DNA from: Rugalucina vietnamica
Taxonomy: Eukaryota > Mollusca > Bivalvia > Lucinida > Lucinidae
NCBI GenBank assembly: GCA_964017185.1
Contig: OZ024874.1
Span: 38,106,721 to 38,170,720 of the forward strand
Direction of reading: 5' to 3'
DNA: 64,000 nt
The notes beneath the pieces were generated by a model that worked only from the letters and a program-made list of their open reading frames with translations, was not told the origin of the DNA and made no database searches. Shown here piece after piece: positions 4,601 to 59,937 of this stretch; positions within the stretch are counted from its first letter, which is position 1, and every line of letters starts with the position of its first letter. Position numbers and translations under genes: made by a program.

Positions 4601-4619
4601 GCAGGGTTATATCTAAATA

Positions 4620-5035
4620 CATCAGGATGTTTGGTGGTGAAAGTGTTTCAGGGGTTGCAATATACATATATTCAGTTTTAGTCGTTATTTGTTCACATTT
4701 TCAAACACGAAATTCACTGTGAAAAACTAAAGTCTGCTCTGACACCCTCACTTCGCATTTTGTTCATAGAAATATTAAACATGTTAAATTTTGTCTCCAG
4801 ATGATGATCCATTTCCGGATAATTGATATGTTCTCGTTTGCAATTTTTCTTTTTTTCCCCACTGTGTATGTTTGGGGGGTTTGATTCCGTCATAAATTGT
4901 TTTCCTGTTTACTTTCGTATTTTACTGTCTAAAAACTTGCCTCTGATAATGGTTTTTCGCAGAAATTTTTTGTATGGGGGACGACAGAAAAATTATTTTA
5001 ATGTCAAAATCTTGATCTTAGTTTGTCCTAATAGG
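4620..5035. other. No gene recognised
   Basis: AT-rich spacer between a LINE relic and an inverted repeat; only short chance ORFs. Confidence 0.4.
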
Positions 5036-5949: not shown

Positions 5950-8470
5950 GAAAATAAAACATTTGGGGTGGACCATTAAAACTATTTACAAGATATAGAT
6001 GAGAGGCATACTAAAACGCATGCCTCTGGGCTAATGATTTAAATAGAAGCCTTAAATTCCTCAATGGTCTTAGATAGGACCACTGAGGAAGGGAGACTAT
6101 TCCAAACCGGAATAGTTCTGGGGAAAAAGGAATTTTTCAGGGCATCACTATAGGCAAATGGTCTTGTGTATTGTGATTCATGTGATGCCCGAGTATGCCT
6201 TAGATTGGGTGCCGGGGTCAGGTATTTGTCTTTATCAAGAGACACTGTACCGGAGTGTATCTTGTAGAAGAAGGTTAAGGAGGACCGCTCCCTGCGAGAC
6301 TCCAGGGATGGCCACTCAAGTTCGTCTAGCATTTCACCGACGCTACTGGTGTTCCTCCATCGCCTGCAGGTCCACCGGGCAGCAGTCCTCTGCACCTTCT
6401 CCACCATCTCAATCTGAGTTTCATGATAGGGATGCCAAATAGGAGCTGCATACTCAAGTTGAGGCCGAACCAATGTTTTGTATGCAACTTCCTTAGTATG
6501 CCTAGGTGCCAGTGCCAAATTGCGCCGAAGAAAACCCAGAGTCTTAGTTGCCTTGCATGTAATTTCAGAAATGTGTTGACCCCAATCAAGATCATCTGTG
6601 ATAGTTAAACCAAGGTATTTAGCGGACTGAACCTGTTCTAATGTTTGCTGATGCAGTGTGTAATTGAAATTTATATGCCTGCTTGGATGTAGCCGCGTCA
6701 CCCTCATTGAATGACATTTGCTAACATTGAATTTCATTTGCCAATCCGTTTCCCATTTGGCCAAGCTATTCAGGTCATCTTGTAAAATTTGACAATCCAA
6801 TGGTGACTTGACATTTCTGTATAAAACACAATCATCAGCAAATAGCCGAACAGATGACCTGATGTTGTCAGGAAGATCATTAATGAAAATAAGAAATAGG
6901 ACCTAAGACCGATCCTTGTGGGACACCAGAAAGAACCGGGACTGGATCTGAGGCACGGCCATCTAATACCACTTTTTGAGAGCGCTCAGAGAGCCACGAG
7001 TCGATCCACTTATGTGTAGATCCTCTAATCCCGTAGAAGTCGAGTTTGTATAATAACCTTTTATGTGGGACCTTGTCAAAGGCCTTAGCGAAATCCATGA
7101 CAATCACATCCGTCTGCCTGTGGCCACGACCCACTGCTCGGTCCAGATTACTAACCAAATCATGATAAAACTGAACTAACTGGGTTTCGCAAGACCTTTG
7201 ACTTCGGAACCCATGCTGACAGTCAGCAAGAATGTTTTCAAGAGCCAAGTGTTTGTTTATGTTGCTGACTATTATATGCTCTAGAGTTTTGCAACAGATA
7301 CAAGTAAGCGACACCGGTCGATAATTAGCTGCATCGTATTTCTCACCTTTCTTAAATACCGGGGCTACATTTGCCTGTCGCCAATCGTCTGGTACAGCAC
7401 CCTGAGCAAGCGACTCATTGAAGATATAGGTCAGTACAGGAGCAATTTCAGAACTACATTCCTTCAACACCCTAGCACTCAGGCCATCTGGCCCAGGCGC
7501 CTTATGTATATTCAAATTATTCAACAGTTTAATGACCCCATTGGGGTCAACTGTAATTTCACCCATAGCGGTGAAAGGACTTGTGCCTTTGGAGGGGATT
7601 TCATCATCTGATTCGCGAGTGAAGGCTGACTGAAACTGCCTATTACAAATATTAGCCTTATCCAAAGTGTCAGTCTTCAAGATACCATTTTCTCTAAGAG
7701 TATTGATCCCAGACGCGTCTTTCTTAAGGGACTTGACAAATGACCAAAACTTTTTTGCCTTTTCATTTTTTCGGGGACAATCGGGATCAGGATTATCATT
7801 TTCAAAGGAGAAGATATTGGTAATATGCTTCCAATATGCATCTCTAATGCTCTTTTGAACATGTGCTCTGAACCGTTTGTAATGGTTCTTAATGTCAGGG
7901 CTGCTTGACTTGCGAGCACGAAAGTAAAGTTTATCACGTTTCCTTATCAAGCGTTTGATCGAGCTATCGATCCATGGTAAGCTATATTTTGTCTTGGTCA
8001 TTTTTGATGGAATAAACCTTTCAATAGCCGAGAGAACCTCCGACTTAAAACTGACCCACATGTCATTGACTGACAACTGACTATGGTCAGTTGAAAGGAA
8101 CGAATCCCTATAGCGCGCTAGATGGTCATGGAGACCGTCCATATCCGCTCGTTTATATAGGAAAATCTTACGCGGGGCCTGCTGAATCCGTTTAGCCTTT
8201 ATGTCATATTCAATATAGACAATGTCATGATCTGCTTTGCCGATCGGGGGCATCCCTTTAACACGGTTAATTGGGGATGGCGAGTTAGTGAAGAGTAAAT
8301 CAAGGGTCTTGTCTTCTCGGGTGTGTATATTTACCATTTGGGAGAGGCAGTGATCCTGTATTATGTCCACAAGTTTAGTCTGAATTAGCACCTTTAGCAG
8401 CATGCTGGGTGCTCCATACACTTCAGTGCAAAAAGACCAACAGTCGAGAGCCATTATCACCTAATTGCTA
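5950..8470 (-). pseudogene. 5'-truncated CR1-like non-LTR retrotransposon ORF2 with one frame break
   Basis: This is the best-preserved LINE here. 8460 down to 6880 is one open frame of about 525 codons. It holds the endonuclease C-terminus (DKTLDLLFTN, ADHDIVYIEYD), a basic linker, and RT motifs in order: KAPGPDGLSARVL, NYRPVSLTC, CQHGFRSQRSCETQ, DFAKAFDKVPHKRLLYKL, SGVPQGSVLGP. The frame breaks just after SGVPQGSVLGP (near 6890); the next frame continues with LIFINDLPD, the catalytic LFADD box and QILQDDLNSLAKWE, then reads 6800-6039 to the tail (SFFPRTIPVWNSLPSSV). Comparison with the neighbouring copies suggests a net loss of about five bases at the break. The first in-frame codon at 8460 is GTG and the first ATG is at 8454, but the true N-terminus is missing, so neither is a real start. 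The 3' UTR runs to about 5950. Confidence 0.9.
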
Positions 8471-10239: not shown

Positions 10240-11234
10240 AAGAATAGTTAAAATCATAAAAACAAGCATGAGGGGATCTATGGGCGAGAATGCTGCAGCT
10301 TGCAGACTGTGGCCTTAAAGGCCTCAAGATTCTGCAAGCTTGCAACAGACTCTGGGAGAGAATTCCACTGTACTATAGCTAGTGGGAAAAATGAATATTT
10401 ATAGTAATCCCTAGAGGTCATGGAGTGGCAGTACCGGGAAATTCTATTTGAGTACTGCACATAGTCCGGGAGGGGTACGGCAACTAGTCCATGAATAACC
10501 TTGAAGAATAAACAAAGACGAGCATCAGCTCGTCTTTGATCCAATGATCGCCATTCTAGGTCTTGAACAATCCTGGTTACACTAGCATGTCTATCAAAGT
10601 TTCCAACCGTCCAACGAGCAGCTCTTCGCTGGATATGTTCAATTTGGGATATGTATTTCTTATTATGGAGGTCCCACACAGCTGATGCATATTCGAGCTG
10701 TGGCCTAACTGGGGCATTGTATGCTCTTTCACGCACCTTTGACATTTTTGTTTTTATGTTTCGTCTGATAAAGCCAAGATTTCTATTTGCATTGCCGGTT
10801 ATACGGTCGACATGGGTTTTCCAGGAGAGATTACTAGAGATATCAACCCCGAGATATCTGGCACTTGTGACTGACTCCAAGACCTTTCCATGCAATACAT
10901 AGTTAGTCTTATTGACTGGTCCTTTAGAGCCAGTCACATGCACCACCTGACATTTGGAGGGGTTGAACTCTATATCCCACCTGGACTCCCATGCCGATAG
11001 GATGTCTAAGTCGTTTTGGAGTGCTGAGCTGTTGTCCTCACTTTCCATGGTGAGGTACAGGGCAGTATCGTCAGCAAATAGTCGCACCTGGGAGCGAACC
11101 TCATCAGGCAGATCATTTATATAGACGAGGAAGAGAATCGGCCCCAGCACCAAGCCCTGGGGAACACCAGATGTGACCGGCACTGATTCCGACTCCTCCC
11201 CGTCAATCACTACCTGCTGAAATACCATGTACAT
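10240..11234 (-). pseudogene. 5'-truncated CR1-like RT fragment, C-terminal part
   Basis: An open frame of 318 codons on the minus strand starts inside the RT: VPVTSGVPQGLVLGP, FLVYINDLPDEVRSQ, catalytic LFADDTALYL, CQVVHVTGSKG, KYLG-type motif ARYLGVDISSNLSW, and tail YKYSFFPLAIVQWNSLPESV. It ends about 10278 with a short 3' UTR. The RT N-terminus and the endonuclease are absent, so it is a dead truncated copy, although the remaining frame is uninterrupted. Its sequence differs clearly from the LINE at 5950-8470, so it belongs to a different subfamily. Confidence 0.88.
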
Positions 11235-11329
11235 GTAGTGTCAAATTATTGTTCAGACATTGGGCTAGTGATATATATGGTATTGTGAAATAAGGCCACT
11301 TCCAGCAGCCTCGATTGCTGTTGGCTAGC

Positions 11330-32719: not shown

Positions 32720-33027
32720 AATGTTGTCTAGCCAGATTTTGCTTGCATATGCAATGATAACATTTGTATAACATATATACCATGGTATCAGTGATCACAG
32801 TTTTCTGCATCAAAAACAGTTTGTGGTTCATTTGTATCATTTTCATCTGAAAAAAACTGACTTACCCTCAGTGAAACTATCTTCAGGGTTTCTGGTACTA
32901 AGAAACAATGTTTTAGATTCACTTGGGGAAAGGCTGAAGTTGTAAGAAGATGGCATCCATCATTGCGTCATGTATTACAGCATTCGTGAGCTATTGTCTA
33001 CTTGTGTGAGCCTCTTCAGTATTAAAC

Positions 33028-33125
33028 AGCCGAGGACTCGTTAGCATAGTATATTGACTGTACGTAGAGGTCAAGGGTTTAAATCCTATGGTAGCTGGGT
33101 TGTGTCCATGAGCAAGACACATTAA
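33028..33125 (+). repeat. 5' half of a SINE split by the giant palindrome
   Basis: Head with GACTCGTTAGCATAG and box B-like GGTTTAAATCC, then GGTTGTGTCCATGAGCAAGACACATTAA. It stops at the TTAA that bounds element A. Its 3' half resumes at 42462, on the other side of 9.3 kb. Confidence 0.65.
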
Positions 33126-34632
33126 GAGCAATTCCGTGTAAAAACCAGCCAAATCCTTATGGGGGCTCGGCACGCATGGTCATGGATTTCCTTCATACTT
33201 TACGGATATATTAGGGACCACACAAAAACAGGTTTTTCAATGTTAGTTTTTTGAAAATATGCATGGTTGCCATGGTAACCACAATAGAAGATTTAGGGCT
33301 TCAAAACAGCATTTTTTGAGTGAAAATTGGCACTTTTTCAAACACAACCTAGACATCACATAACTTGCTTTCTAAAATTTGAATGCATACAATGGTACAG
33401 ATATACATACTCAAAATTACTGTAACTTAGCATCTTAGTATAATGAACTGTCTTCTACCTATGGTAGTTGTAAGGTGGGTGGGGTTTCCCATTTTTCAAT
33501 TTTATCAAAAAAGTCATTTTTCAGCATATTTTGAGAACATGAAGAAAAAAATTGAGGTAAATTTAAGAGGCCTCACATAGTTGTCATGAAAGATCATTGT
33601 CAGCATGGCCAGTTAATATAAAATCTTAGTGGGCACTTCATAAACAAAAATTTCAGAGACATCTAAATCTACCTACTAGGACGAGACCCCATAAAATTGT
33701 GTTTTTATAATATCGAGGTTAAAGAATGAGGCTATCCAAATATTTTTGACTTTACACTAAATGAGAATTTTGAACAGTTATATAATGATATATAGCATCT
33801 AAAAATACTTATAAAGCAATGATTAATTGCATTTAAAGTGTTTAATGACAATGTAGAAGTACCCCACCCACTTAAATTAACATGGAAACTGGTACATTTT
33901 CAACCTGAAACAGAAGTTAGTACAAGTTAAATGTGATAAAATGCTATAGTCAAGAGACATATTGTATACTTAGTGCAAAACCAATGAATTGTTCACCAGT
34001 AAAACAATGGTTACCATGGTAACACTTAGAACAAACATACATGGTCGCATCTTAAATAGCAATGGCAAATAGACTATATTGCTGGTAACTTCATACAATA
34101 TATCAAACATCATTTTTTTTTTATTATTTTTATTGTGTAAATCATTAGCAAAATGTTAAAATACTCATAAATATGCTTTACTGTCTAAGGTACTCAATGA
34201 CAGGATAACCTTACCCCACCCACTTAATTAACATTAAGAGCAATTCTCTGTAACCACTTAAATTTTTTCACAGGGCCGTGGAACACATAATCACCGATTT
34301 TTGCTGAAACTTTCTTATCTTGGTTATGTAAACACAAACTTTTTTAATCGACACTCATTTGGTCCAATTTCATACCCGTTGCCATGGAAACGGCAAATGA
34401 ATATTTTGGCAAAAAGTGTGTCCGAAAATCACTTAAACTGGGTATTTTCCAGCTGAAACAATTACTTTATACAAATTCAGATCCAACTTCTGGTCCCTAT
34501 TTATGAATATATAACACATTCTGGTTAGAAATACAAAAAACAAACATTGATTTGGAAAACCTTTGATTTTATCGTGGCCCTGCAAAGTGGGTGGGGTTTC
34601 AAAGATTTGAAAAATGTGATTTTGAAGCATTT

Positions 34633-35121
34633 CATGATGAGAACATCTCTTATATCTGAAAACAAGAATTCTTATCTTGCAGTTATGCACCTATTATGTA
34701 AATGAACTAATTAACACCTAGAGTCTTCAGCTACATTTACCTGTATTTTGTCCATTTTCTTTACCTCAACAATGTATTAAAAATGTTATTTTTTGGTCAA
34801 ATTTAACGTTTGAAAAACAAAATTCAATTAACTTTTCCCCCTCTTTAAAGCTATAGCCTTAAATTTTTTGTACAATTTAAAAACTTAAAATTTATATATT
34901 TTCCATTCTTTTGATTGTGGTATCAGATTACCTTTTAATGACCAAGCAGATATCAGACTCTGACCACTCCAACATTTTATTGCAATAATTACTACAGAAT
35001 GAATCAAAGCCACCTGTTATCAGCAGGAAGCCTCAAAACCGCACTTCCTTATCTAACCCGAGTTAGCACCTAGTTTCTAGGGTAACCGCACTTAATTTTA
35101 TAAGAGGATGTTCTCAGCATG
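34633..35121. mobile_element. 489-bp MITE-like insert in left arm of element B
   Basis: Ends CATGATGAGAACATCTCTTA and TAAGAGGATGTTCTCAGCATG (allowing few differences) are inverted. The matching site in the right arm (about 40805-40820) lacks the segment, reading straight from GAAGCATTTTCAGGGAC in complement. No clear target duplication. Confidence 0.7.
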
Positions 35122-35394
35122 TCAGGGACAATTTTCATTGTGGGTGCAGTCGGTTGCAGATATACGCGCATATTTACGATATCCAACAGTGTTTTGTTAA
35201 CTAAGTTCTGAATAGACATGTTTGGGAAGTAAGGTCTGAATACGCGTAACTATAGCAACAATGAGGGTACTGTCACAAAACGCAAATTTGTGAGTGTCTG
35301 TCAGTTTGATCTCATAGAATTCTAATAAGAGGACATAATTGGTTGTAAATTATTTGATATGTTGCAATTGAAACTACTCTTTAGAAAATTTTGC

Positions 35395-36785
35395 ATATAA
35401 TCTTCAGTGACCTTCTAAAGGTCAAGGTCAAGGTCATAGAATAGAGAAAAATGGCACAAAATTGGCCTTTTCCTATGTTCAAGTTGATTTATGCATAACT
35501 GAGACTCAAATTTCTTACTTACTTTATTGGATATTTATGCATACCACTACAAAGTATTTCATGTTGAGATATTTTTGTCCACCAGGTGATTTCAAGGTCA
35601 AGGTCAAATATCATTCAGACAGTACTCCTGCTGACCTGAAATAACCTTTTAAGGGTCAAGGTCATGGTCAAAAATGCAAGAAAATGGCTTAAATTGGCAT
35701 TTTCTTACCAGTATTTTGTTATTTTTCAAAGAGTTTGGTGCAAAATTGCCTAAATATTTGTTTTGAATGCTTGAGATATGTTGTATATGAAACAAAGGTT
35801 AAGAAAATATGGCATTGTATCTGCAGTGACCTTTGGAAAGTCAAGGTCAAGGTCACGTTAGAGAAAGATAACACAAAATTGGCTTTTTTTTGCTCATGTT
35901 ATAGTTGATTTGGCCATAATTTAGGCTCAAGTTTTTTTTCCTTATTGAATATTTATGCACATCGCCACGCCGTATTTTTTCACGCTGAGATATTTTTGTC
36001 CACCAGGTGACTTCAAGGTCAAGGTCACGAAAAGTTCAATTTTTCAGGGGTAAAATGAAGTTTTTGTTGAAGAAGTAAACAAATTAAAGTGTTAATTTTT
36101 ATCTTAAGTTTTTTCATTTAAATATGTGTTGCAAAGTCCAATATCATTCAGACAATCCACCTGCTGGCCTTAAATTACCTTTTAAGGGTCAAGGTAAAGG
36201 TCAAAAATGCAAGAAAATGGTTTAAACGGGCATTTTCTTATCAGTATTTTGTAATTTTTTTTCACAGAGTTTGGTACAAAATTGTAATAATATTTGTTAA
36301 AACGCTTGAGATATGTTGTGTATGGAACAGCAGTTAAGAAAATATGGCATTGAATCTGCAGTGACCTTCAATGGCATTGAATATGCAGTGGCCTTCTGAA
36401 ACTGAATTCTTCAAGGTAACAGAATCAAGAAAATGACATGAAAATGTCATTTTTTTGGCCAATATTCAAGTTTATTTTGCAATAATTGTTCCTTGACATT
36501 CTTGTTATCATGAATGATTATACATGTTTACACAAAGTCTTTCAATTTGTGATAATTTTGTCCACCAGGTGACTTCAAAGTAAAGGTCAAGGTCTCAAAA
36601 CTTTGAATTTTAGGGGGTAAATGGAGTTTTTGTGTTAATTGTAAACAAATTAAATTATTTATTTCAATCATAGTATGCTTTTTTTCATATATATATGTGT
36701 TGCAAAGTTCGATATCATTCCGACAATACACCTGTTGACCTAAAATAACCTTTTAATAATGGTAAAGGTCAAGGTCAAAAATGTA
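35395..36785. repeat. Left-arm tandem units with AAGGTCA arrays
   Basis: About three units marked by CACCAGGTGACTTCAAGG near 35581, 36001 and 36564, each followed by TCAAGGTCAAGGTCA. They are the inverse of the units in the right arm. Confidence 0.8.
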
Positions 36786-37044
36786 AGAAAATGGCTGAAA
36801 CTGGCATTTTTTACCAGTATTTTGTTATTTTCCTCCGATTTTGGTGCGAAACTGTTTAATGTTTGTTTTTTAAAGTTTGAAATATAATGTACAGCATATG
36901 AAACAGCTATAACCATGCATTTTTTAACTGGTTTATGTTTAGATATAGGTATCAATATAGAAAAGTATGGAGTGCCACAGGTCCAATCTCAGTATTATGA
37001 AAACATGAATTTATGAGATCTTGCTTTAGTGCTCACATTTAACT

Positions 37045-37150
37045 GTCTTTGAAAACTTTGTTTATGAAGTGCCCACTAATATTTTTTTTCAGATTTGCCT
37101 TAGATGGCAATGTTCTTTCATGGGGAGTGTATAAGGCCTCTCAAATTTGT
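37045..37150 (+). repeat. Diverged piece of element A in the spacer of B
   Basis: GTTTATGAAGTGCCCACTAA, GCAATGTTCTTTCATG and AAGGCCTCTCAAATTT match, with differences, the element A arm at 41945-42030 in the same orientation. Confidence 0.6.
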
Positions 37151-37154
37151 GTAC

Positions 37155-37395
37155 GATCAGGAAAAGGTGCAATCAGAAAGAAACCGAGGTGGGAAAAAAG
37201 TAAACCGAGAACCACATCGTAAGCCGAAGAAGCAGCTATTTCTCAACAGGTGGCCACTCAGTTACCCAAACTTAAATAAAAATATGTAAATCCACGTAAG
37301 GTTCAAAAAGCAGAAAATTCGACCCAAAACAAAAACACATAGAACCACAACAGAATCACCGCCTTGGAACGATCAGTAAAACAAAATTACTGGGG
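37155..37395 (+). repeat. Dispersed repeat R, copy 1
   Basis: Shares AGGAAAAGGTGCAATCAGAA, TCGTAAGCCGA, TGGCCACTCAGTTACC, ACTTAAATAAAAATATG and CGCCTTGGAA(C/T)GATCA with 54218-54475, in the same order and orientation. A small ORF here has no match in the second copy, so it is probably not coding. Confidence 0.75.
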
Positions 37396-37496
37396 GGACT
37401 TAAACCGGTTTTACTGGGCCCCAACCTCACAGTACCTCTGGAGAACCTCTATAGGTGAGGGGAATGAAATCCGGATCACATGCGCAAGACAAAATG

Positions 37497-38387
37497 CATG
37501 CATCTTTGACCTTGACCTTTACCATTAAAAGGTTATTTTAGGTCAACAGGTGTATTGTCTGAATGATATCGTACTTTGCAACACATACTTAAATGAAAAA
37601 GCATACTATGATTGAAATTAATAATTTAATTTGTTTACAATTAACACAAAAACTCCATTTTACCCCCTAAAATTCAACGTTTTGAGACCTTGACCTTTAC
37701 TTTGAAGTCACCTGGTAGACAAAATTATCACAGATTGAAAGACTTTGTGTAACATTTATAATCATTCATGATAACTCGAATGTAATGGAACAATTATTGC
37801 AGCATAAAATTGAATATTGGCCAAAAATGACATTTTCATGTCTTTTTCTTGATTCTGTTACCTTAAGAATTCAGTTTCAGAAGGTCACTGCAGATTCAAT
37901 GCCATTGAAGGTCACTGCAGATTCAATGCCATTTTTTTCTTAACTGCTGTTCTATATACAACATATTTCAAGCGTTTTAACAAATATTAAAGCAATTTTG
38001 CACCAAACTCCGTGAAAAAATAACAAAATACTGGTATGAAAATGCCCGTTTAAACCATTTTCTTGCATTTTTGACCTTGACCTTGACCCTTAAAAGGTAA
38101 TTTAAGGCCAGCAGGTGGATTGTCTGAATCATATTGGACTTTGCAACACATATTTAAATGAAAAAGCTTAATATGATAAAAATTAATACTTTAATTTGTT
38201 TACTTCTTCAACCAAAAACTTCATTTTACCCCCTGAAAAATTGAACTTTTTGTGACCTTGACCTTGACCTTGAAGTCACCTGGTGGACAAAAATATCTCG
38301 GCGTGAAAAAAGTCGTGATGATGTGCATAAATATTCAATAAGGAAAAAAACTTGAGCCTAAATTATGACCAAATCAACTTTAACTTG

Positions 38388-38418
<31 letters not shown>

Positions 38419-40530
38419 TGTTATCTTTCTCTAACGTGATATTGACCTTGACTTTCCGAAGGTCACTGCAGATTCAATGCCATATTTTCTTAACCTTTGT
38501 TTCAAATACAATATATCTCAAGCTTTCAAAACAAATATTTAGGCAATTTTGCACCAAACACTTTGAAAAATAACAAAATACTGGTCAGAAAATGCCTGTT
38601 TACACCATTTTCTTGCATTTTTGACCTTGACCTTGACCCTTAGAAGGTAATTTAAGGCCAGCAGGTGGATTGTCTGAATGATATTGGACTTTGCAACACA
38701 TATTTAAATGAAAAAGCTTAATACGATAAAAATTAACACTTTAATTTGTTTACTTCTTCAACCAAAAACTTCATTTTACCCCCTGAAAAATTGAACTTTT
38801 CATGACCTTGACCTTGACCTTGAAGTCACCTGGTGGACAAAAATATCTCAGCGTGAAAAAAGTCGTAATGATGTGCATAAATATTCAATAAGGAAAAAAA
38901 AAACTTGAGACTAAATTATGACCAAATCAACTTTAACTTGAGCAAAAAAAAAACAACATTTTTTTGTTTTCTTTCTCTACGTGACATTGACCTTGACTTT
39001 CCGAAGGTCACTGCAGATTCAATGCCATATTTTCTTAACTTTTGTTTCATACACAGCATATCTCAAGCTTTCTAAACAAATATTTAGGCAATTTTGCACC
39101 AAACTCTTTGAAAAATAACAAAATACTGGTAAGAAAATGCCCGTTTACAGTAAGAAAATGCCCGTTTACACCATTTTCTTTCATTTTTGACCTTGACCTT
39201 GACCCTTAGAAGGTAATTTAAGGCCAGCAGGTGGATTGTCTGAATAATATTGGACTTTGCAACACATATTTAAATGAAAAACCTACTTCGATAAAAATTA
39301 ACACTTTAATTTGTTTACTTCTTCAACCAAAAACTTCATTTTACCCCCTGAAAAATTGAACTTTTCGTGACCTTGACCTTGACCTTGAAGTCACCTGGTG
39401 GACAAAAATATCTCAGCGTGAAAAATTTCGTTGTAATGTGCATAAATATTCAATAAGGAAAAAAAACTTGAGCCTAAATTATGGCCAAATCAACTATAAC
39501 ATGAGCAAAAAAAAGCCAATTTTGAGTTATCTTTCTCTAACGTGACCTTGACTTTCCGAAGGTCACTGCAGATTCAATGCCATATTTTCTTAACCTTTGT
39601 TTCATATACAACATATCTCAAGCTTTCAAAACAAATATTTAGGCAATTTTGCACCAAACTCTTTGAAAAATAAAAAATACTGGTAAGAAAATGCCCGTTT
39701 AAACCATTTTCTTGCATTTTTGACCTTGACCTTGACCCTTAAAAGGTAATTTAAGGCCAGCAGGTGGATTGTCTGAATGATATTGAACTTAGCAACACAT
39801 ATTAAAATGAAAAAGCTTAATACGATAAAAATTAACACTTTAATTTGTTTGCTTCTTCAACAAAAAACTTCATTTTACCCCCTGAAAAATTGAACTTTTC
39901 ATTGAACTTTTCATAACCTTGACCTTGACCTTGAAGTCACCTGGTGGACAAAAATATCTCAGCGTGAAAAACATCGTGGTGATGTGCATAAATATTCAAT
40001 AAGGAAAAAAACTTGAGACTAAATTATGGCCAAATCAACTATAACATGAGCAAAACATTTTTGTTATCTTTCTCTAACGTGACCTTGACCTTGACTTTCT
40101 GAAGGTCACTGTAGATTCAATGCCATATTTTCTTAACCTTTGTTTCATATACAACATATCTCAAGCTATCAAAACAAATATTAAGGAAATTTTGCAACAC
40201 ACTCTTTGAAACATAACAAAATACTGGTAAGAAAATGCCAATTTAAGCCATTTTCTTGCATTTTTAACCTTGACCTTGACCCTTTAAAGATTATTTAAGG
40301 TCAGCAGGAGGATTGTCTGAATGATATTTGACCTTGACCTTGAAGTCACCTGGTGGACAAAAGTATCTCAACATGAAATACTTTGTTGTGATATGCATAA
40401 ATATTCAATAAAGTAAGAAATTTGAGCCTCAATTATGCATAAATCAACTTGAACATGGGAAAAGGCCAATTTTGTGCCATTTTTCCCTATTCTGTGACCT
40501 TGACCTTGACCTTTAGAAGGTCACTGAAGA
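37497..40530. repeat. Right-arm tandem array of about 555-bp units with TGACCT arrays
   Basis: The marker AAGTCACCTGGTGGACAAAA (one variant TAGACAAAA) occurs near 37707, 38272, 38823, 39389, 39934 and 40342; spacing is about 550-570 bp for most. Each unit carries TGACCTTGACCTTGACCT before the marker and a second TGACCTTGACC plus GAAGGTCACTG. I count about 30 TGACCTTGA in this array. A poly(A) tract interrupts at 38391-38418. Confidence 0.85.
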
Positions 40531-41257
40531 TTATATGCAAAATTTTCTAAAGAGTAGTTTCAATTGCAACATATCAAATAATTTACAATCAATTATGTCC
40601 TCTTATTAGAATTCTATGAGACCAAAATGGCAGACACTCACAAATTTGCGTTTTATGACAGTACCATCATTGTTGCTATGGTTACGCATATTCAGACCTA
40701 ACTTCCCAAACATGTCTTTTCAGAACTTGGTTAACAAAACACTGTTGGATATCGTAAATATGCGCGTATATCTGCAACCGACCGCACTCACTATGAAAAT
40801 AGTCCCTGAAAATGCTTCAAAATCACATTTTTCAAATTTTCGAAACCCCACCCACTTTGCAGGGCCACGATAAAATCAGAGGTTTTCCAAATCAATTTCT
40901 AACCAAAAAAATGTGTTATATATTCATAACCAGGGACCAGAAGCTGGATCTGAATTTGTATAAAGTAATTGTTTCAGCTGGAAAATACCCAGTTTAAGTG
41001 ATTTTCGGACACACTTTTTGCCAAAATATTCATTTGCCGTTTCCATGGCAACGGGTATGAAATTGGACCAAATGAGTGTTGATTAAAAAGTTTTGTGTTT
41101 AAATAACCAAGATAGGAAAGTTTCAGCAAAATCGGTGATTATGCGTTCCACGGCCCTGTGAAAAAATTTAAGTGTTTACAGAGAATTGCTCTTAATGTTA
41201 ATTAAGTGGGTGGGGTAAGGTTATCCTGTCATTGAGTACCTTAGACAGTAAAGCATA

Positions 41258-41433
41258 TTTATGCAGCCTTTTCACTAACTTTTGAAGTAACAGGCTGAAA
41301 ACTTCAAGTAGAAGGCAAAAATAGGGTCATTTAAAAGAAATACACTGTGAATATATGAAAAGTAGGAGGCTGAACATTCATAATAGAAGGCAATTTAGCC
41401 TCCTGCCGCCTGCTAATGAGAAGGCTGTTTATG
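41258..41433. mobile_element. 164-bp DNA element, CAGCCTT termini, 6-bp TSD, empty site known
   Basis: 41264-41427 begins CAGCCTTTTCACTAAC and ends GCTAATGAGAAGGCTG, inverted with two differences. It is flanked by TTTATG at 41258-41263 and 41428-41433. The left arm of element A (about 34160-34180) shows the uninterrupted site CATAAATATGC in complement, which proves that the segment was inserted. Confidence 0.88.
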
Positions 41434-42461
41434 AGTATTTAAACATTTTGCTAATGATGTACAACATAAAAATAATAAAAAAATGATGTTTGATATATTG
41501 TATGAAGTTACCAGCAACGATGTCTATTTGCCATTGCTATTTAAGATGCGACCATGTATGTTTGTTCTAAGTGTTACCATGGTAACCATTGTTTTACTGG
41601 TGAACAATTCATTGGTTTTGCACTAAATATACAATATGTCTCTTGACTATAGCATTTTATCACATTTTACTTATAATAATTTCTGTTTCAGGTTGAAAAT
41701 GTACCAGTTTCCATGTTAATTTAAGTGGGTGGGGTACTTCTACATTGTCATTAAACACTTTAAATACAATAAATCATTGCTTTATAAGTATTTTTAGATG
41801 CTATATATCATTATATAACTGTTTAAAATTCTCATTTAGTGTTAAGTCAAAAATATTTGGATAGCCTCATTCTTTAACCTCGATATTATAAAAACACAAT
41901 TTTATGGGGTCTCGTCCTAGTAGGTAGATTTAGATGTCTCTGAAATTTTTGTTTATGAAGTGCCCACTAAGATTTTATATTAACTGGCCATGCTGACAAT
42001 GATCTTTCATGACAACTATGTGAGGCCTCTTGAATTTACCTCAATTTTTTCTTCATGTTCTCAAAATATGCTGAAAAATGACTTTTTTGATAAAATTGAA
42101 AAATGGGAAACCCCACCCACCTTACGACTACCATAGCTAAAAGACTGTTCATTATACTAAGATGCTAAGTTACAGTAATTTTTAGTATATATATATGTAC
42201 CATTGTATGCATTCAAAATTAAGTTACCAAGTTAGGTGATGTCTAGGTTGTGTTTGAAAAAGTGCCAATTTTCACTCAAAAAATGCTGTTTTGAAGACCA
42301 AAACCTTCTAGTGTGGTTTCCATGGCAACCATGCATATTTTCAAAAAACGAAGGGAAGTTTCAATACATCGTTTTTGACCCTCTATCCGAAAATCAGGTT
42401 TTCGTTAAAATCTGTGACTATGCGTGGCCACACTTTGGTTGGTTTTTACACGGAATTGCTC

Positions 42462-42565
42462 TTAACACCCCATAGTTCTGGTTTAAACCCAAAATGTGGT
42501 TGCTTCCTGCTGAAAAATTGTTGACTGAGACATTAAATGAGACCATAAAAGAAACAAAACAAATC
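42462..42565 (+). repeat. 3' half of the SINE split by element A
   Basis: TTAACACCCCATAGTTCTGG, then CTGAAAAATTGTTGACTGAG, ACATTAAATGAG and an A-rich end GAAACAAAACAAA. The join to 33028-33125 across TTAA gives a continuous SINE-like body. Confidence 0.65.
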
Positions 42566-45329: not shown

Positions 45330-45540
45330 TATATCTTGCCTAACGTTCTGGCTGGAATCCATTGCTCTTTTGTTACACTTCGATGGGCCTATGTCATTCC
45401 TTTGATGCATAGGTATCACCATGTTCCTTCAGTGATAATACTGGGTTGACCATGACCTGTTTTACAGCAAGGTCAAGTGTATCCCGCTGCTGTATTCAGA
45501 AATGCTGCTTACCTAGCATGATTGACACACAAACAGTAGT

Positions 45541-48500
45541 GAGGACTGACTGACATCTTCATAACCAGGATTTGTTTGTACGGGTAGTGAGGACTGACTG
45601 ACATCTCCATAATCAGGATTTGTTTGTATGTACGGGTAGTGAGGACTGACTGACATCTCCATAATCAGGATTTGTTTGTTTGTACGGGTAGTGAGGACTG
45701 ACTGACATCTTCATAACCAGGATTTGTTTGTTTGTACGGGTAGTGAGGACTGACTGACATCTCCATAATCAGGATTTGTTTGTTTGTACGGGTAGTGAGG
45801 ACTGACTGACATCTCCATAACCAGGATTTGTTTGTTTGTACGGGTAGTGAGGACTGACTGACATCTCCATAATCAGGATTTGTTTGTTTGTACGGGTAGT
45901 GAGGACTGACTGACATATCCATAATCAGGATTTGTTTGTTTGTACGGGTAGTGAGGACTGACTGACATATCCATAATCAGGATTTGTTTGTTTGTACGGG
46001 TAGTGAGGACTGACTGACATCTTCATAACCAGGATTTGTTTGTTTGTACGGGTAGTGAGGACTGACTGACATCTCCATAATCAGGATTTGTTTGTTTGTA
46101 CGGGTAGTGAGGACTGACTGACATCTCCATAACGAGGATTTGTTTGTTTGTACGGGTAGTGAGGACTGACTGACATCTCCATAATCAGGATTTGTTTGTT
46201 TGTACGGGTAGTGAGGACTGACTGACATCTCCATAACCAGGATTTGTTTGTTTGTACGGGTAGTGAGGACTGACTGACATCTCCATAATCAGGATTTGTT
46301 TGTTTGTACAGGTAGTGAGGACTGACTGACATCTCCATAACCAGGATTTGTTTGTTTGTACGGGTAGTGAGGACTGACTGACATCTCCATAACCAGGATT
46401 TGTTTGTTTGTACGGGTAGTGAGGACTGACTGACATCTCCATAATCAGGATTTGTTTGTACGGGTAGTGAGGACTGACTGACATCTTCATAACCAGGATT
46501 TGTTTTTACGGGTAGTGAGGACTGACTGACATCTCCATAACCAGGATTTGTTTGTACAGGTAGTGAGGACTGACTGACATCTCCATAACCAGGATTTGTT
46601 TTTACGGGTAGTGAGGACTGACTGACATCTCCATAACCAGGATTTGTTTGTACAGGTAGTGAGGACTGACTGACAACTTCATAACCAGGATTTGTTTTTA
46701 CGGGTAGTGAGGACTGACTGACATCTCCATAACCAGGATTTGTTTGTACGGGTAGTGAGGACTGACTGACATCTCCATAACCAGGATTTGTTTGTACAGG
46801 TAGTGAGGACTGACTGACATCTCCACAGGGATATTGTTGGCTTGAAATTGTAAGGGGCCATTTCGCGAAAAATGCTCAACTGAAATCATTATCGCCTATA
46901 CCCTTACATTATAAAACTGGCCCATTATTTCAAAATTAAGGGGCCATTTTGAAAAGTTAAGGGCAATTTTGCCCATGGCCCCTTCCAAAATTATCCCTGT
47001 CTCCATAACCAGGATTTGTCTGTACAGGTAGTGAGGACTGACTGACATCTCCATAACCAGGATTTGTTTGTACGGGTAGTGAGGACTGACTGACATCTCC
47101 ATAACCAGGATTTGTTTGTTTGTACGGGTAGTGAGGACTGACTGGCATCTCCATAACCAGGATTTGTTTGTTTGTACGGGTAGTGAGGACTGACTGACAT
47201 CTCCATAACCAGGATTTGTTTGTTTGTACGGGTAGTGAGGACTGACTGACATCTCCATAATCAGGATTTGTTTGTTTGTACGGGTAGTGAGGACTGACTG
47301 ACATCTCCATAATCAGGATTTGTTTGTTTGTACAGGTAGTGAGGACTGACTGACATCTCCATAACCAGGATTTGTTTGTACGGGTAGTGAGGACTGACTG
47401 ACATCTCCATAACCAGGATTTGTTTGTACAGGTAGTGAGGACTGACTGACATCTCCATAACCAGGATTTGTTTGTACGGGTAGTGAGGACTGACTGACAT
47501 CTCCATAACCAGGATTTGTTTGTTTGTACGGGTAGTGAGGACTGACTGGCATCTCCATAACCAGGATTTGTTTGTTTGTACGGGTAGTGAGGACTGACTG
47601 ACATCTCCATAACCAGGATTTGTTTGTTTGTACGGGTAGTGAGGACTGACTGACATCTCCATAATCAGGATTTGTTTGTTTGTACGGGTAGTGAGGACTG
47701 ACTGACATCTCCATAATCAGGATTTGTTTGTTTGTACAGGTAGTGAGGACTGACTGACATCTCCATAACCAGGATTTGTTTGTACGGGTAGTGAGGACTG
47801 ACTGACATCTTCATAACCAGGATTTGTTTGTTTGTACGGGTAGTGAGGACTGACTGACATCTCCATAATCAGGATTTGTTTGTACGGGTAGTGAGGACTG
47901 ACTGACATCTTCATAACCAGGATTTGTTTTTATGGGTAGTGAGGACTGACTGACATCTCCATAACCAGGATTTGTTTGTACAGGTAGTGAGGACTGACTG
48001 ACATCTTCATAACCAGGATTTGTTTGTTTGTACGGGTAGTGAGGACTGACTGACATCTCCATAATCAGGATTTGTTTGTACGGGTAGTGAGGACTGACTG
48101 ACATCTTCATAACCAGGATTTGTTTTTATGGGTAGTGAGGACTGACTGACATCTCCATAACCAGGATTTGTTTGTACAGGTAGTGAGGACTGACTGACAT
48201 CTCCATAACCAGGATTTGTTTTTACGGGTAGTGAGGACTGACTGACATCTCCATAACCAGGATTTGTTTGTACAGGTAGTGAGGACTGACTGACATCTCC
48301 ATAACCAGGATTTGTTTTTACGGGTAGTGAGGACTGACTGACATCTCCATAACCAGGATTTGTTTGTAAGGGTAGTGAGGACTGACTGACATCTCCATAA
48401 CCAGGATTTGTTTGTACAGGTAGTGAGGACTGACTGACATCTCCTAGACTCCATAACCAGGATTTGTTTGTACAGGTAGTGAGGACTGACTGACATCTCC

Positions 48501-50240
48501 ATAACCAGGATTTGTTTGTACGGGTAGTGAGGACTGACTGACATCTCCATAACCAGGATTTGTTTGTTTGTACGGGTAGTGAGGACTGACTGGCATCTCC
48601 ATAACCAGGATTTGTTTGTTTGTACGGGTAGTGAGGACTGACTGACATCTTCATAACCAGGATTTGTTTGTTTGTACGGGTAGTGAGGACTGACTGACAT
48701 CTCCATAATCAGGATTTGTTTGTTTGTACGGGTAGTGAGGACTGACTGACATCTCCATAATCAGGATTTGTTTGTTTGTACGGGTAGTGAGGACTGCCTG
48801 ACATCTCCATAATCATGATTTGTTTGTACGTGTAGTGAGGACTGACTGACATCTCCATAACCAGGATTTGTTTGTTTGTACGGGTAGTGATGACTGACTG
48901 GCATCTCCATAACCAGGATTTGTTTGTTTGTACGGGTAGTGAGGACTGACTGACATCTTCATAACCAGGATTTGTTTGTTTGTACGGGTAGTGAGGACTG
49001 ACTGACATCTCCATAACCAGGATTTGTTTGTACGGGTAGTGAGGACTGACTGACATCTTCATAACCAGGATTTGTTTGTTTGTACGGGTAGTGAGGACTG
49101 ACTGACATCTCCATAATTAGGATTTGTTTGTTTGTACGGGTAGTGAGGACTGACTGACATCTCCATAATCAGGATTTGTTTGTACAGGTAGTGAGGACTG
49201 ACTGACATCTCCATAACCAGGATTTGTTTGTTTGTACGGGTAGTGAGGACTGACTGACATCTCCATAATTAGGATTTGTTTGTTTGTACGGGTAGTGAGG
49301 ACTGACTGACATCTCTATAATCAGGATTTGTTTGTACAGGTAGTGAGGACTGACTGACATCTCCATAACCAGGATTTGTTTGTTTGTACAGGTAGTGAGG
49401 ACTGACTGGCATCTCCATAATCAGGATTTGTTTGTACGGGTAGTGAGGACTGACTGACATCTCCATAATCAGGATTTGTTTGTACGGGTAGTGAGGACTG
49501 ACTCACATCTCCATAATCAGGATTTGTTTGTACGGGTACTGGGGACTGACTGGTATCTTCATAACCAGGATTTGTTTGTTTGTACGGGTAGTGAGGACTG
49601 ACTGATATCTCCATAATCAGGATTTGTTTGTAGGGGTAGTGAGGACTGACTGACATCTTCATAACCAGGATTTGTTTGTTTGTACGGGTAGAGAGGACTG
49701 ACTGACATCTCCATAATCAGGATTTGTTTGTACGGGTAGTGAGGACTGACTGACATCTCCATTATCAGGATTTGTTTGTACGGGTAGTGAGGACTGACTG
49801 ATATCTCCATAATCAGGATTTGTTTGTACGGGTAGTGAGGACTGACTGACATCTTCATAACCAGGATTTGTTTGTTTTTACGGGTAGTGAGGACTAACTG
49901 ACATCTTCATAACCAGGATTTGTTTTTTTGTACGGGTAGTGAGGACTGACTGACATCTTCATAATCAGGATTTGTTTGTTTGTACGGGTAGTGAGGACTG
50001 ACTGACATCTCCATAATCAGGATTTGTTTGTTTGTACGGGTAGTGAGGACTGACTGACATCTCCATAATCAGGATTTGTTTGTTTTTACGGGTAGTGAGG
50101 ACTGACTGACATCTCCATAATCAGGATTTGTTTGTTTGTACGGGTAGTGAGGACTGACTGACATCTCCATAATCAGGATTTGTTTTTACGGGTATTGTGG
50201 ACTGACTGACATCTTCATAATCAGGATTTGTTTTTTTTTA
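45541..50240. repeat. Minisatellite, about 90 units of 52 or 48 bp
   Basis: Unit core: GTGAGGACTGACTGACATCT, CCATAA(C/T)CAGGATTTG, then TTTG once or twice, TACGGGTA. Units are 52 bp (two TTTG after the first) or 48 bp (one). Frequent variants are CTTCATAA for CTCCATAA, ACAGGTA for ACGGGTA, TTTTTAC for TTTGTAC. A 174-bp insertion splits the array at 46826-46999, and a CTCCTAGA(CT) scar occurs at 48442. On the minus strand the units translate in three linked frames (for example YPYKQTNPGYGDVSQSSLPV); the longest frame is 217 codons. I read it as non-coding. Confidence 0.95.
46820..47005. mobile_element. 174-bp DNA element inside the minisatellite, CAGGGAT termini, 6-bp TSD
   Basis: 46826-46999 begins CAGGGATATTG and ends AATTATCCCTG, and is flanked by TCTCCA at 46820-46825 and 47000-47005. 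The surrounding unit reads ACATCTCCATAACC when the insert and one TCTCCA are removed, so the empty site is known from every other unit. The inside has AAGGGGCCATTT twice and AAGGGC. Confidence 0.88.
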
Positions 50241-50249
50241 CGGCTCAAA

Positions 50250-54212: not shown

Positions 54213-54480
54213 CAGGAAAAGGTGCAATCAGAAATTCCCACCATTCCCAAATCCGAGGTGGGAAATACTAAATCGACAATTAGGTACTTATACGCAGAAA
54301 AAAATATCGTAAGCCGAGTGAGCAGCTATTTCCCAATAGATGGCCACTCAGTTACCGGAACTTAAATAAAAATATGATAATGTACATAAGGTTCAAACAG
54401 TACAAAAATTTGACTCCAAAACATAAAACAAATGGAACCACAACAGAAGTATCGCCTTGGAATGATCATTAATATAAAAT
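54213..54480 (+). repeat. Dispersed repeat R, copy 2
   Basis: Second copy of the repeat at 37155-37395, slightly longer because of an extra block around TAGGTACTTATACGCAG. It follows family P4 after about 120 bp. Confidence 0.75.
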
Positions 54481-54489
54481 TACATCGCA

Positions 54490-56944: not shown

Positions 56945-57345
56945 TTTCAGAAAGCTGTAACACTGATGTATTAGGAGAAGGAAGCAAAGATCTTGGATTA
57001 CTTTCTAAGAGATGCATATTCTTCCCCATTTTCGGAGTAGACAGTGATAAATTAAGATTCCTAGCTGATACGTGGAATACATAGTCTGGTGTAATTTCGG
57101 AATATTTCATGGTGCTTTCGGAATAATAAGATCTTAATAGAAGATGTCTATTGGAATCTTTGGATTAAACAGCTAATTCTAAGGACCAGATTACGGCTAA
57201 GAGCAGTTTTAGGCTCGTTTTCCAAAGCATACAGGCTTTGATAAGTGTTGATCATGATTAGACTGGAGTAAAGTGGTTCAAGAGAAAAATGTTAAATTGG
57301 AGTTACTACATGTGGAATTAAGAAGATAAAACTACAGTTGTGACA

Positions 57346-59692
57346 ATGAGTGATTTACAGGATATGGATACGAGTGATTTAGAGGGAATGGATGAGGAGG
57401 AGTCAGATTCCCAGCCATCAGATAATGAACCTCAGCCACCTGTTACAGATGCCCAGCCATCAGATAATAAACCTCAGCCACCTGTTACAGATGCCCAGCC
57501 ATCAGATAATAAACCTCAGCCACCTGTTACAGATGCCCAGCCATCAGATAATAAACATTTTACTGGAGACATTGGGCTGGGAGGTGGTGCTTCTGCTCCC
57601 AATACTGTAAGAGTAAAGACTGACACACGGCATGTGAGAACCCAAATGGCTGCAGTTGATACACACAAAACAGTTGCCAAAACCTCAAACAGTAAGGACA
57701 AAATCAGTGTCAGTTCTGCGAGTGATAGGGATCAAAAGAAACGTGATGCCAAATCTAATGAGCATACAAAGTATAACTTAGATGGCAAATTAGACAAATC
57801 TGAATATAGAAGTGAAGTACAACCAAAAAGCACTGACAATAAGAACAGTTTGAAAAAACAAGCCCATCAGCAGATAGATATTGAAGCAGCAAAGAAAATG
57901 ACAATCCAAATGCATGGCACTAAACTAAAAGATACCCCTGATAAAAACTGTCCTGACCCAAAAAGAGCAAGATTAGACAATCGATCATTAGAATTAAATA
58001 CAAATAAGCATTCATCTGAAAAAGCAAATGTGATTCAGGAATTCGATACAAATGCAGCCAGTGTGAAACCTCTTCATTATGGAACAGAACAAGAAAGTGT
58101 TGTTTTTGCTGGGCAGCTAGAGGAACTGATGATTGATGATGAACAAACAGAATTGACAAGCTTAGAAATACCTGCTACTACACGAGGTTCTATATCTGTA
58201 AAGGAAACTGGTGATGATGTTACAGTGTTAGATCATGATGAAGAAAGAGATATTGTAAGAGCAAGGTCATACTCAGATAGTGTTGCTGCAGCATACTTTG
58301 ATGCTGCCATAGGTTCTATGTCAAAACCACATGATCAAGTTGCTGGTCCATACCAGCTGGCAGAACGAAAAGACATCATGTTTCATGTTGGTTACGAAGA
58401 ATTAAAAACAGAAACACTCTCAGATCTTGATTTGAAACAAGCAAACAGAGAGCAAGTGACAAACTTAGATGAAGTAGATGATAGTGAAGTTGATAAAGTC
58501 ATGGGTGCTTCAAAGACAGATCAGTTACCTTATGATGAAGTTGATGCAATGTTACCTGGTCCTGTAATAGATGGACCTGACAATTTTAATCCATGCAAGA
58601 GAGAATCTAAAGTCAAGTGGGATGATAACATATTTTTAGTGATAGCAGATAAGGAGGACAATATTTTGATTGATGACCCAGTCTTGTCTAAGAACTGGAA
58701 AGAAGATGAAGAAACATTTGAATGGCATATGAAACATGAACCTGTAATATCACAGACTTGGAAAGAGGAGATCATTCAGAGAAATTTAAGAGATTTGCCT
58801 GATGATGCTAGCCTTGAAGTGAATCCACCGAGTTTAAGAATGACTACAGATGAATTTTGTAGTGATATCATTACAGAAAGTAAAACAAGTGATATAAATG
58901 AAGGATTAATCAGTGACTTCAGCTTCAGTTTGACAGATAGAATACTAGCTGATGTTTTGGAAACATTGTCTTCAACTTTCAGTCAAATTTCGGGAAAAGA
59001 AAGAACATCTAATATTGAAGATGATATCACTTCAGGAGGCACAGAAAATTCTTTCAAAATAGATGAAAGTCAAATAGACAGTAGTTCAAAACTTCCAGAA
59101 GTTTACTCCTGTGATTCTTACTCTGATTTTTGTCGAGAACTTGAAGCATCCGATTCTGGGTATAAAGCCAGCGTAGGTGTAAGTTTTGAGGATAATGAAG
59201 ATAGCACTAGTTTTGATGATAAACCTGATGAATTTCCAAAGATAGAAATCCTTGAACCTGGTGATTTTGACAAAGTGTCACCAGATGAATTTGAAAAATT
59301 TATTCACCAAAGGCTTCAAAAGGATGATAATCTTAAGAGAGGACAGAGTGAAACACAAGCTGAAACAAATCCCAGTGAAATTGAATCAAAACAGATTGAG
59401 GTTGATGACAGTGAATTAAAAAGGATAGCTGAAGCTAATGTTGTAGATGTGTTAGAGCCTGAAAGTTTGTCTAGTTTAGAATATCACCAAGGTGTGGTGT
59501 TGAACACTGGGTTATCAGAGGATCAGGAATATCATGAAATAATGGCTGCCTTGGCCAATGAGGAGTATAGGATGGATGATCAGGGTTTCATAGCCGGTAC
59601 AGCCCAGGATTATGGACTTGTTCCAGGCTCAGACATAGAAGATGGGGCTGCTAGTTTGGAATATTGTGACTGGGCCATCTCAGAGGATGACT
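57346..59692 (+). CDS. Large acidic exon of an unidentified multi-exon gene
   Basis: The first ATG at 57346 (context ACAATGAG) follows an in-frame TAA at 57319. The frame stays open for 784 codons and closes with a TGA at 59698-59700, but the last bases are CTGTAAGTGA: a strong donor GTAAGT at 59693. The exon therefore most likely ends at 59692 in phase 1 and the stop is intronic. The protein is very rich in Asp, Glu and Ser, with no membrane segment or known fold that I can see. Residues 23-70 hold tandem 14-residue units QPSDNKPQPPVTDA. A basic stretch PKRARLD near residue 206 could be a nuclear localisation signal. Residues about 443-476 contain a duplicated motif, DPVLSKNWKED and EPVISQTWKEE. 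Probably an intrinsically disordered scaffold or adaptor; family unknown. Later exons lie beyond the window or were not recognised. Confidence 0.8.
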
Positions 59693-59698
59693 GTAAGT
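59693..59698 (+). other. Predicted 5' splice site
   Basis: GTAAGT, preceded by ACT and followed by GA, at the very end of the 784-codon frame. A perfect intron start within three codons of the ORF stop is unlikely by chance. Confidence 0.6.
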
Positions 59699-59937
59699 GA
59701 CCAGCATCCTGTTGCATGATTTTGGCTGCTTAGTAGATTAGTTAGATTGTTGTCACAAGAGATACATGCTTTTGCCTTTTTTTCATGCTCATTGCTTGCT
59801 TTATGATTTTTGTTTAGAAAATATTAAGTGTCATTTTCTTGCTGTGATTGAAATGTGTACGAAAATTTTTATTGCCTTCCATGGAAATTTTTAAAGGCTG
59901 CTGGCATGTAGTAATTTGAAACCATTGTTGTTGTTAT

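Follow-up and report, generated by a model that had tools for sequence, protein, structure and literature searches.

The described DNA transposons closest to the element treated here, a pair of nested palindromes bounded by TTAA, are Galileo, the Mutator-like elements (MULEs) with tandem terminal inverted repeats (TIRs), Kolobok and KolobokP. The element lies in a 64,000-nucleotide stretch of the bivalve Rugalucina vietnamica (the window; C6:38106721-38170720 of the 1.09-Gb host assembly). Galileo, a foldback-like member of the P superfamily, is mostly non-autonomous and has TIRs of up to ~1.25 kb with internal tandem repeats; these TIRs have been extended by duplicated and inverted internal sequence, some copies are chimeric, and conversion among copies has been proposed (PMC3573991). 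In tandem-TIR MULEs two related TIR pairs have been amplified as a unit and versions with three TIRs exist, the origin of the extra TIR being, according to the authors, not clear (PMC3310237). For Kolobok, a rule of 5'-RR/YY-3' termini has been given, in contrast to piggyBac, and KolobokP is described as composite-like, TTAA-specific and rich in bivalves, with ends able to move alone, long direct terminal repeats and coding capacity (PMC9587614).

Like Galileo, the present family has long TIRs with tandem repeats, extended TIRs, chimeras, conversion and mostly non-autonomous copies. Unlike Galileo, for which 7-bp target duplications are reported (PMC3573991), it has on each side an additional end module flanked by a TTAA of its own, and a conversion tract has been mapped between the arms of one copy; TTAA is found in place of the 7-8-bp duplications of Galileo and the P superfamily. 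With the tandem-TIR MULEs it shares related outer and inner pairs and amplification as a unit; tandem TIRs are related over at least 100 bp, and the A and B ends described below over ~410 bp. The MULEs are reported without a target duplication at the inner TIR (PMC3310237), unlike the present elements. Here TTAA stands at outer and inner ends alike, and the target site is a different one. Mutator-type elements duplicate ~9 bp of target. In contrast to what is available for tandem-TIR MULEs, one-sided forms and conversion tracts in this family suggest a route by which extra ends arise.

The window copy and its family

Elements A (33126-42461) and B (34238-41191) both start with GAGCAATTC beside TTAA and end with its inverse. 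These limits had been read from the letters in an earlier note on this DNA, and an exact search for TTAAGAGCAATTC, with no mismatch allowed, recovered them: it returned exactly four sites in the window, at 33122-33134 and 34234-34246 on the plus strand and at 41183-41195 and 42453-42465 on the minus strand, the TTAA lying at 33122-33125, 34234-34237, 41192-41195 and 42462-42465. Self-comparison of the window likewise bore out the long inverted arms, in three segments: 33243-34171 against 42352-41428 (95.6% over 929 bp), 34166-34632 against 41263-40810 (93.0%) and 35122-36885 against 40809-39058 (83.9%). The A arms are not alike over their full length, because the right arm has ~164 extra bp (41264-41427) and the outermost ~115 bp of the two arms are ~35% different. 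The left A arm is of a type that we call alpha, the right of a type that we call beta. Alignment of the A and B ends shows homology over ~410 bp, with a score of 100 where the best of 60 shuffles reached 50. Four blocks recur in the same order in alpha A, beta A and B ends, in line with the earlier claim of shared, ordered but diverged motifs. The first block is GAGCAATTC at position 1; in the order alpha A, beta A, B, CRCATRRTCAYNGATTT follows at 48, 38 and 47, GTTGCCATGGWAAC at 141, 133 and 140, and GTGGGTGGGG at 350, 342 and 349. The motif GTGGGTGGGGT occurs eight times against 0.39 expected, always within the element, and stands 353 bp from the TTAA start in both left arms. To judge from these shared blocks, the end module, which is ~350 bp long and present in tandem on each side (outer A, inner B), may bind a transposase. 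The parts of the window copy are as follows.

33122..33125, no strand: left TTAA target-site duplication of the composite (pattern match; 228 of 243 family ends with TTAA)
33126..34233, plus strand: A arm, alpha type, with blocks GAGCAATTC at the tip, then inward CGCATGGTCATGGATTT, GTTGCCATGGTAAC and GTGGGTGGGG
34234..34237, no strand: inner TTAA, boundary of A arm and left B arm (pattern match; composite comparison)
34238..36917, plus strand: left B half, made of B end module (34238-34632) and B satellite (self-comparison, motif count)
36918..37157, minus strand: central remnant of native A, 89% identical to positions 1590-1825 of the copy EL described below and reversed relative to the alpha arm
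37216..37390, no strand: piece of a dispersed repeat, with a second window copy at 54306-54483 (84%)
37499..41191, minus strand: right B half, made of B satellite and B end module (40810-41191) (self-comparison)
41192..41195, no strand: inner TTAA, boundary of right B arm and A arm (pattern match; composite comparison)
41196..42461, minus strand: A arm, beta type, with the ~35% divergence from alpha in its outer ~115 bp and the ~164 extra bp at 41264-41427
42462..42465, no strand: right TTAA target-site duplication of the composite (pattern match)

The satellite of the left B half has a ~550-bp period in its tandem part and contains many TCAAGGTCA. This motif resembles an extended ERR/NR5A nuclear-receptor half-site; the window has 51 occurrences where 0.79 are expected, and 40 of the 51 fall within the B satellite (35422-40509). 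The window copy itself seems, by eye, to lie inside a tRNA-derived repeat like a short interspersed element (33020-33121 and 42466-42520), a potential source of empty sites.

A genome search for the ends beside TTAA, proposed in the earlier note, gave 74 exact A ends, forming 29 convergent pairs (6340-10418 bp) with 16 unpaired, and 154 exact B ends; exact patterns undercount the ends of the family. The 100 of the 154 exact B ends that were listed and used for pairing yield at least 33 convergent pairs; 13 of them are enclosed by an exact A pair and the other 20 are not. Of these 20, two belong to A elements whose A end is altered (C4:60306770, C5:45180476), and nine B pairs located outside A pairs were read. 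On C1-C9 an exact B end lies inward of 33 of the 41 exact A ends, 32 times at 1089-1114 bp and once at 1270 bp, the spacing of the window's right arm. When TTAA was not required, 243 ends were found (118 + 125; reversed-pattern control, 2), and 228 of these (93.8%) carry TTAA, a lower bound for A and B ends proper, because the looser pattern admits two further letter pairs. Together with one paralogous empty site, this upholds the proposed family of giant-arm TTAA elements. The site was found by searching with joined flanks: those of L017 match a repeat copy inside L012 (80.6% over 289 bp), which holds one tetramer, TTTA, where the L017 insertion lies between two TTAA. The same search gave one 47-bp match, of L021 in L014.

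Twelve composites (the window copy and L009-L019) were read, and so were nine copies of B standing alone (L020-L028). In composites the 20 bases that flank B (CCCCACCCACTTAATTAACA on the left, TGTTAATTAAGTGGGTGGGG on the right) are alike in all 12, apart from single bases in L010, L011 and one extra end of L016, and the outer flanks of 20 copies show no similarity to one another. An assembly artefact was rejected on account of the many copies at unrelated sites (evidence from the assembly, not from reads), and a one-off nesting because the 29 convergent A pairs and the B ends inward of them recur across the assembly. The nested palindromes represent one copy of a real transposon family whose members transpose as one unit, with two sets of ends per side. 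The earlier view of simply two nested elements is not supported: A(B)A recurs as a mobile composite, its inner B consists of two half-Bs around a remnant of A, and copies with B on one side exist.

Two further arrangements of B ends were observed. In L016 (C4:60305360-60314058) one side bears three tandem B ends at a spacing of ~949 bp; two of the three are 0.3% apart, an arm segment having been gained recently. At C4:24927562-24943848 B ends recur with a period of ~8133 bp, apparently a tandem duplication that includes the flanks.

Arm types and conversion between arms

In a tree of A arms there are two clades of 11, alpha and beta, and each of the 11 copies has one arm in each (L019, trimmed to a point just within its A ends, contributes no A arms to the distance, tree and consensus comparisons). 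The two arms of a copy differ by 6.0-9.1% (mean 8.1%), whereas the nearest A arm in another copy is 0.8-3.4% away. Like arms are thus closer between copies than alpha and beta are within a copy, and we conclude that one old palindrome was recently amplified as a unit. L011, L012 and L017 cluster in both clades, as do L013, L015 and the window copy. The nested B arms form one clade against the solitary B arms (23 and 18 rows, support 100/100). The idea that arms are made anew at each transposition was rejected, since the alpha and beta types persist in all 11 copies. Three B arms with replaced or far-off sequence (L012_L1403, L016_R6350, L016_R7298) were omitted from both B-arm trees and kept in the set for A-arm distances and tree.

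The alpha and beta consensus sequences, with labels assigned by hand from the A-arm tree, differ in the first 100 bp by 30 mismatches at 87 aligned sites and 13 gaps. The next three 100-bp bins have 13, 8 and 10 mismatches (8-13% up to +400), and from there to +2500 there are 0-5 per 100 bp, with 8 in one bin. No step in divergence appears at the A/B boundary near +1106. In L014 the beta arm is alpha-like at 33 of 33 sites from +705 to +2257 (88 diagnostic sites in all), and this tract is an arm-to-arm conversion that crosses the A/B boundary. Two short tracts are possible: four sites at 243-252 in L014, and three sites at 281-324 that L011, L012 and L017 have in common in their alpha arms. 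The remaining departures at diagnostic sites are single or few, or fall in the B arms of L012 and L016, which are altered. Trees differ by region. For 400-1070 the recent copies have their alpha arms grouped as sisters of their beta arms (96), both L014 arms pair (97), and EL, L032, L037 and L038 lie outside. For 120-400 alpha and beta separate, and the alpha arms of EL and L038 join the recent alpha arms (89). These different topologies indicate that conversion recurred with different outer limits.

One-sided copies and the origin of the inner ends

Two A copies, L029 (C1:16155201) and OLD (C17:30799252; L040 and L046), showed no match to B in the ~10 kb read, and their right ends were not found in that ~10 kb. 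Their A arms continue past the inner TTAA into native sequence shared with the alpha side of EL; in OLD an insert interrupts the arm, which is 81-83% like alpha. EL (C15:3491334-3498672, 7339 bp) has TTAA at both ends and one substitution in a beta end block. It consists, in order, of alpha arm, native A, a 150-bp satellite, B satellite, one B arm, TTAA and beta arm. Its beta arm is 94% identical to the inverse of its alpha arm, and EL matches L029 through the alpha-to-native junction at 86.9% over 1270 aligned positions. The satellite at 3074-4860 in mid-copy has a period of ~150 bp and is distinct from that of B. A 402-bp native probe had 15 genome matches, six of them full-length at 91-100%. 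Four of these six loci, all at or above 91%, were read for their layout (C11:29209880 and C7:65454905 lie outside the set), and all four copies fetched, EL, L043, L044 and L045, are hemi-nested, with B on one side only.

These copies bear on whether a complete B landed exactly at the axis of a perfect A palindrome centred on TTAA, its arms meeting at CACTTAATTAACATTAATGTTAATTAAGTG, with the nest amplified afterwards. Such an insertion would account for the mirrored inner flanks and the TTAA on both sides of B in 12 composites, and B does stand alone in nine copies read. However, in the two A copies that lack B, and on the alpha side of the hemi-nested copies, the arm runs into shared native sequence that is not mirrored at the TTAA. 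Moreover, 11 of the 12 composites, all but L015, contain the 650-bp centre of the window's B (L016 has part of it), while solitary B copies match only 48 bp of its edge, in four of nine, plus a flank match in L026, and the A remnant at the composite centre was sought in the nine solitary copies and found in none. We therefore consider an axis insertion very unlikely.

In a B-arm tree that includes solitary, hemi-nested and composite copies (L034 not included; xcomp_L038 on a long branch), the order is solitary, hemi-nested, composite (A-borne against solitary 100/98; composite clade 100/97). Two independent B insertions, at the mirror-image TTAA of both A arms and each followed by loss of the inner half, would explain why both junctions have the same TTAA, at which B does insert. 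Yet both B arms of the composites form one clade apart from solitary and hemi-nested ones, the B arms of the two sides do not group with different solitary lineages, and conversion tracts cross the junction, which leaves this explanation hardly credible. The same tree bears on the proposal that the composite came first, by insertion of a full B and later homogenisation of the arms, and that hemi-nested copies stem from recombination with an A lacking B, which restored native sequence on one side. L038 carries B on its alpha side at a divergence like that of EL, homogenisation of arms is documented by the L014 tract, and such chimeras have been described for Galileo (PMC3573991). Against this, the hemi-nested B arms lie between solitary and composite ones, the composite centre consists of an A remnant with a half-B on either side, and one layout is common to four hemi-nested copies. 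We regard the proposal as unlikely.

The explanation that we find likely is that one arm of a non-autonomous TTAA element acquired half a B, that conversion between the arms copied this half onto the other, and that the resulting unit was amplified; the second set of ends was probably made by copying one palindrome arm onto the other. The starting point would be an A element with inverted-copy arms and native sequence beyond a TTAA at ~+1.1 kb. Free-standing B would have landed in that TTAA of one arm and kept its outer half alone, giving the hemi-nested class. Gene conversion or break-induced copying between the inverted arms, the palindrome serving as its own template, would then have placed half-B and TTAA on the other arm; the symmetric composite would have been amplified as a unit while homogenisation of its arms continued. 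The classes of copy, their tie to TTAA, the amplification as a unit and the conversion tracts are observed, while the passage from hemi-nested to composite, the way of copying and the type of transposase are inferred.

Several observations weigh against this explanation. The least certain step, and one that is not secure, is the order from hemi-nested to composite, because L038 is an old alpha arm with B and the beta junction bases of hemi-nested copies differ from those of composites. L038 is ~5% diverged and about as old as the hemi-nested copies, so that recombination between a composite and an A without B could have produced the latter. The hemi-nested beta-side junction reads ...ACGTAATTAACA in three of four copies and ...ACATAATTAACA in the fourth, and that of composites ...ACTTAATTAACA, a difference which a single beta-to-alpha copying does not predict unless the hemi-nested bases are derived. 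At the passage from alpha arm to native sequence EL and L044 match letter for letter, but L043 and L045 have changes. None of the four hemi-nested copies showed, next to its half-B, the reversed A remnant known from the composite core, and the deepest splits in the tree of region 120-400 are weakly supported. Finally, no coding relative came to light: stop-to-stop frames in 21 copies do not exceed 128 amino acids, and three long centres (L047-L049) showed no transposase among frames judged by eye.

Affiliation, surroundings and implications

In agreement with the earlier note, no stop-to-stop frame of at least 90 amino acids was found in the window copy. The window copy is one of a non-autonomous DNA transposon family that inserts at TTAA and is probably moved in trans by a TTAA-specific transposase, to judge from its ends and target duplications. 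Candidates for an autonomous relative failed: L047 has retrotransposon-like frames (by eye), L048 no frame of 100 amino acids, L049 two low-complexity frames, and in L029 the six frames scanned had no Pfam match at 0.001, the best being an endonuclease domain at 0.0014. L030 and L031 proved to be short beta-type end fragments. At L029:3242-4904, in or beside this A copy without B, there are broken frames resembling a reverse transcriptase by eye, with no Pfam match at 0.001. At L031:59-245 a short beta-type A end lies near an apparent host exon with a splice donor (by eye).

The earlier note had tentatively attributed mobilisation to a piggyBac- or Kolobok-type system. The TTAA association stood, at 228 of 243 ends and with the TTAA-like TTTA in the empty site, and both A and B ends have the form GA...TC, which fits the Kolobok rule; the class is still a conjecture. 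TTAA duplications and 5'-RR ... YY-3' termini are shared with Kolobok, including Xenopus Kolobok and T2-MITE (PMC9587614, PMC6004289). Kilobase arms and doubled ends set the present family apart, and no Kolobok DDD/E transposase with THAP and H2CH motifs between such ends was found in the 21 copies or the three long centres. TTAA and RR/YY ends suggest, and do not prove, membership in Kolobok, and the family is not filed there because no transposase was found. With KolobokP it shares the composite-like layout, TTAA, ends able to move alone and a bivalve host (PMC9587614), and KolobokP was excluded, its long terminal repeats being direct where the arms here are inverted, with no coding frame found. 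The TTAA duplication is also that of piggyBac, and the family's ends begin with GA, a start given as a difference between Kolobok and piggyBac (PMC9587614). An open-access literature search with three end strings, which did not extend to Repbase or subscription papers, gave a single match, a MeCP2 paper. Termini of piggyBac start with a pyrimidine. Sola3, also considered, targets TTAA as well, and the open literature searched yielded no account of it that gives its termini.

Elsewhere in the window, open stretches at 2592-4175, 6039-8460 and 10278-11240 resemble, by eye, reverse transcriptases of retrotransposons without long terminal repeats. A 4.7-kb tandem array of 52/100-bp units at 45536-50243 has long open frames on the minus strand, and at 57322-59700 lies an acidic open frame of 792 amino acids with 42-bp repeats near its start, perhaps a host exon.

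Copies lacking B, one-sided copies and two-sided copies occur together in this genome, as does a conversion tract across the junction, and the origin of extra ends is therefore testable here. We put forward only tentatively that palindromic transposons can gain new ends by half-insertion and mirror-copying, without a second insertion, and that doubled ends gave a transposition advantage and hence the recent burst. Conversion from arm to arm is known from sex-chromosome palindromes. If our explanation is true, such conversion would also be able to shape new transposon architectures.

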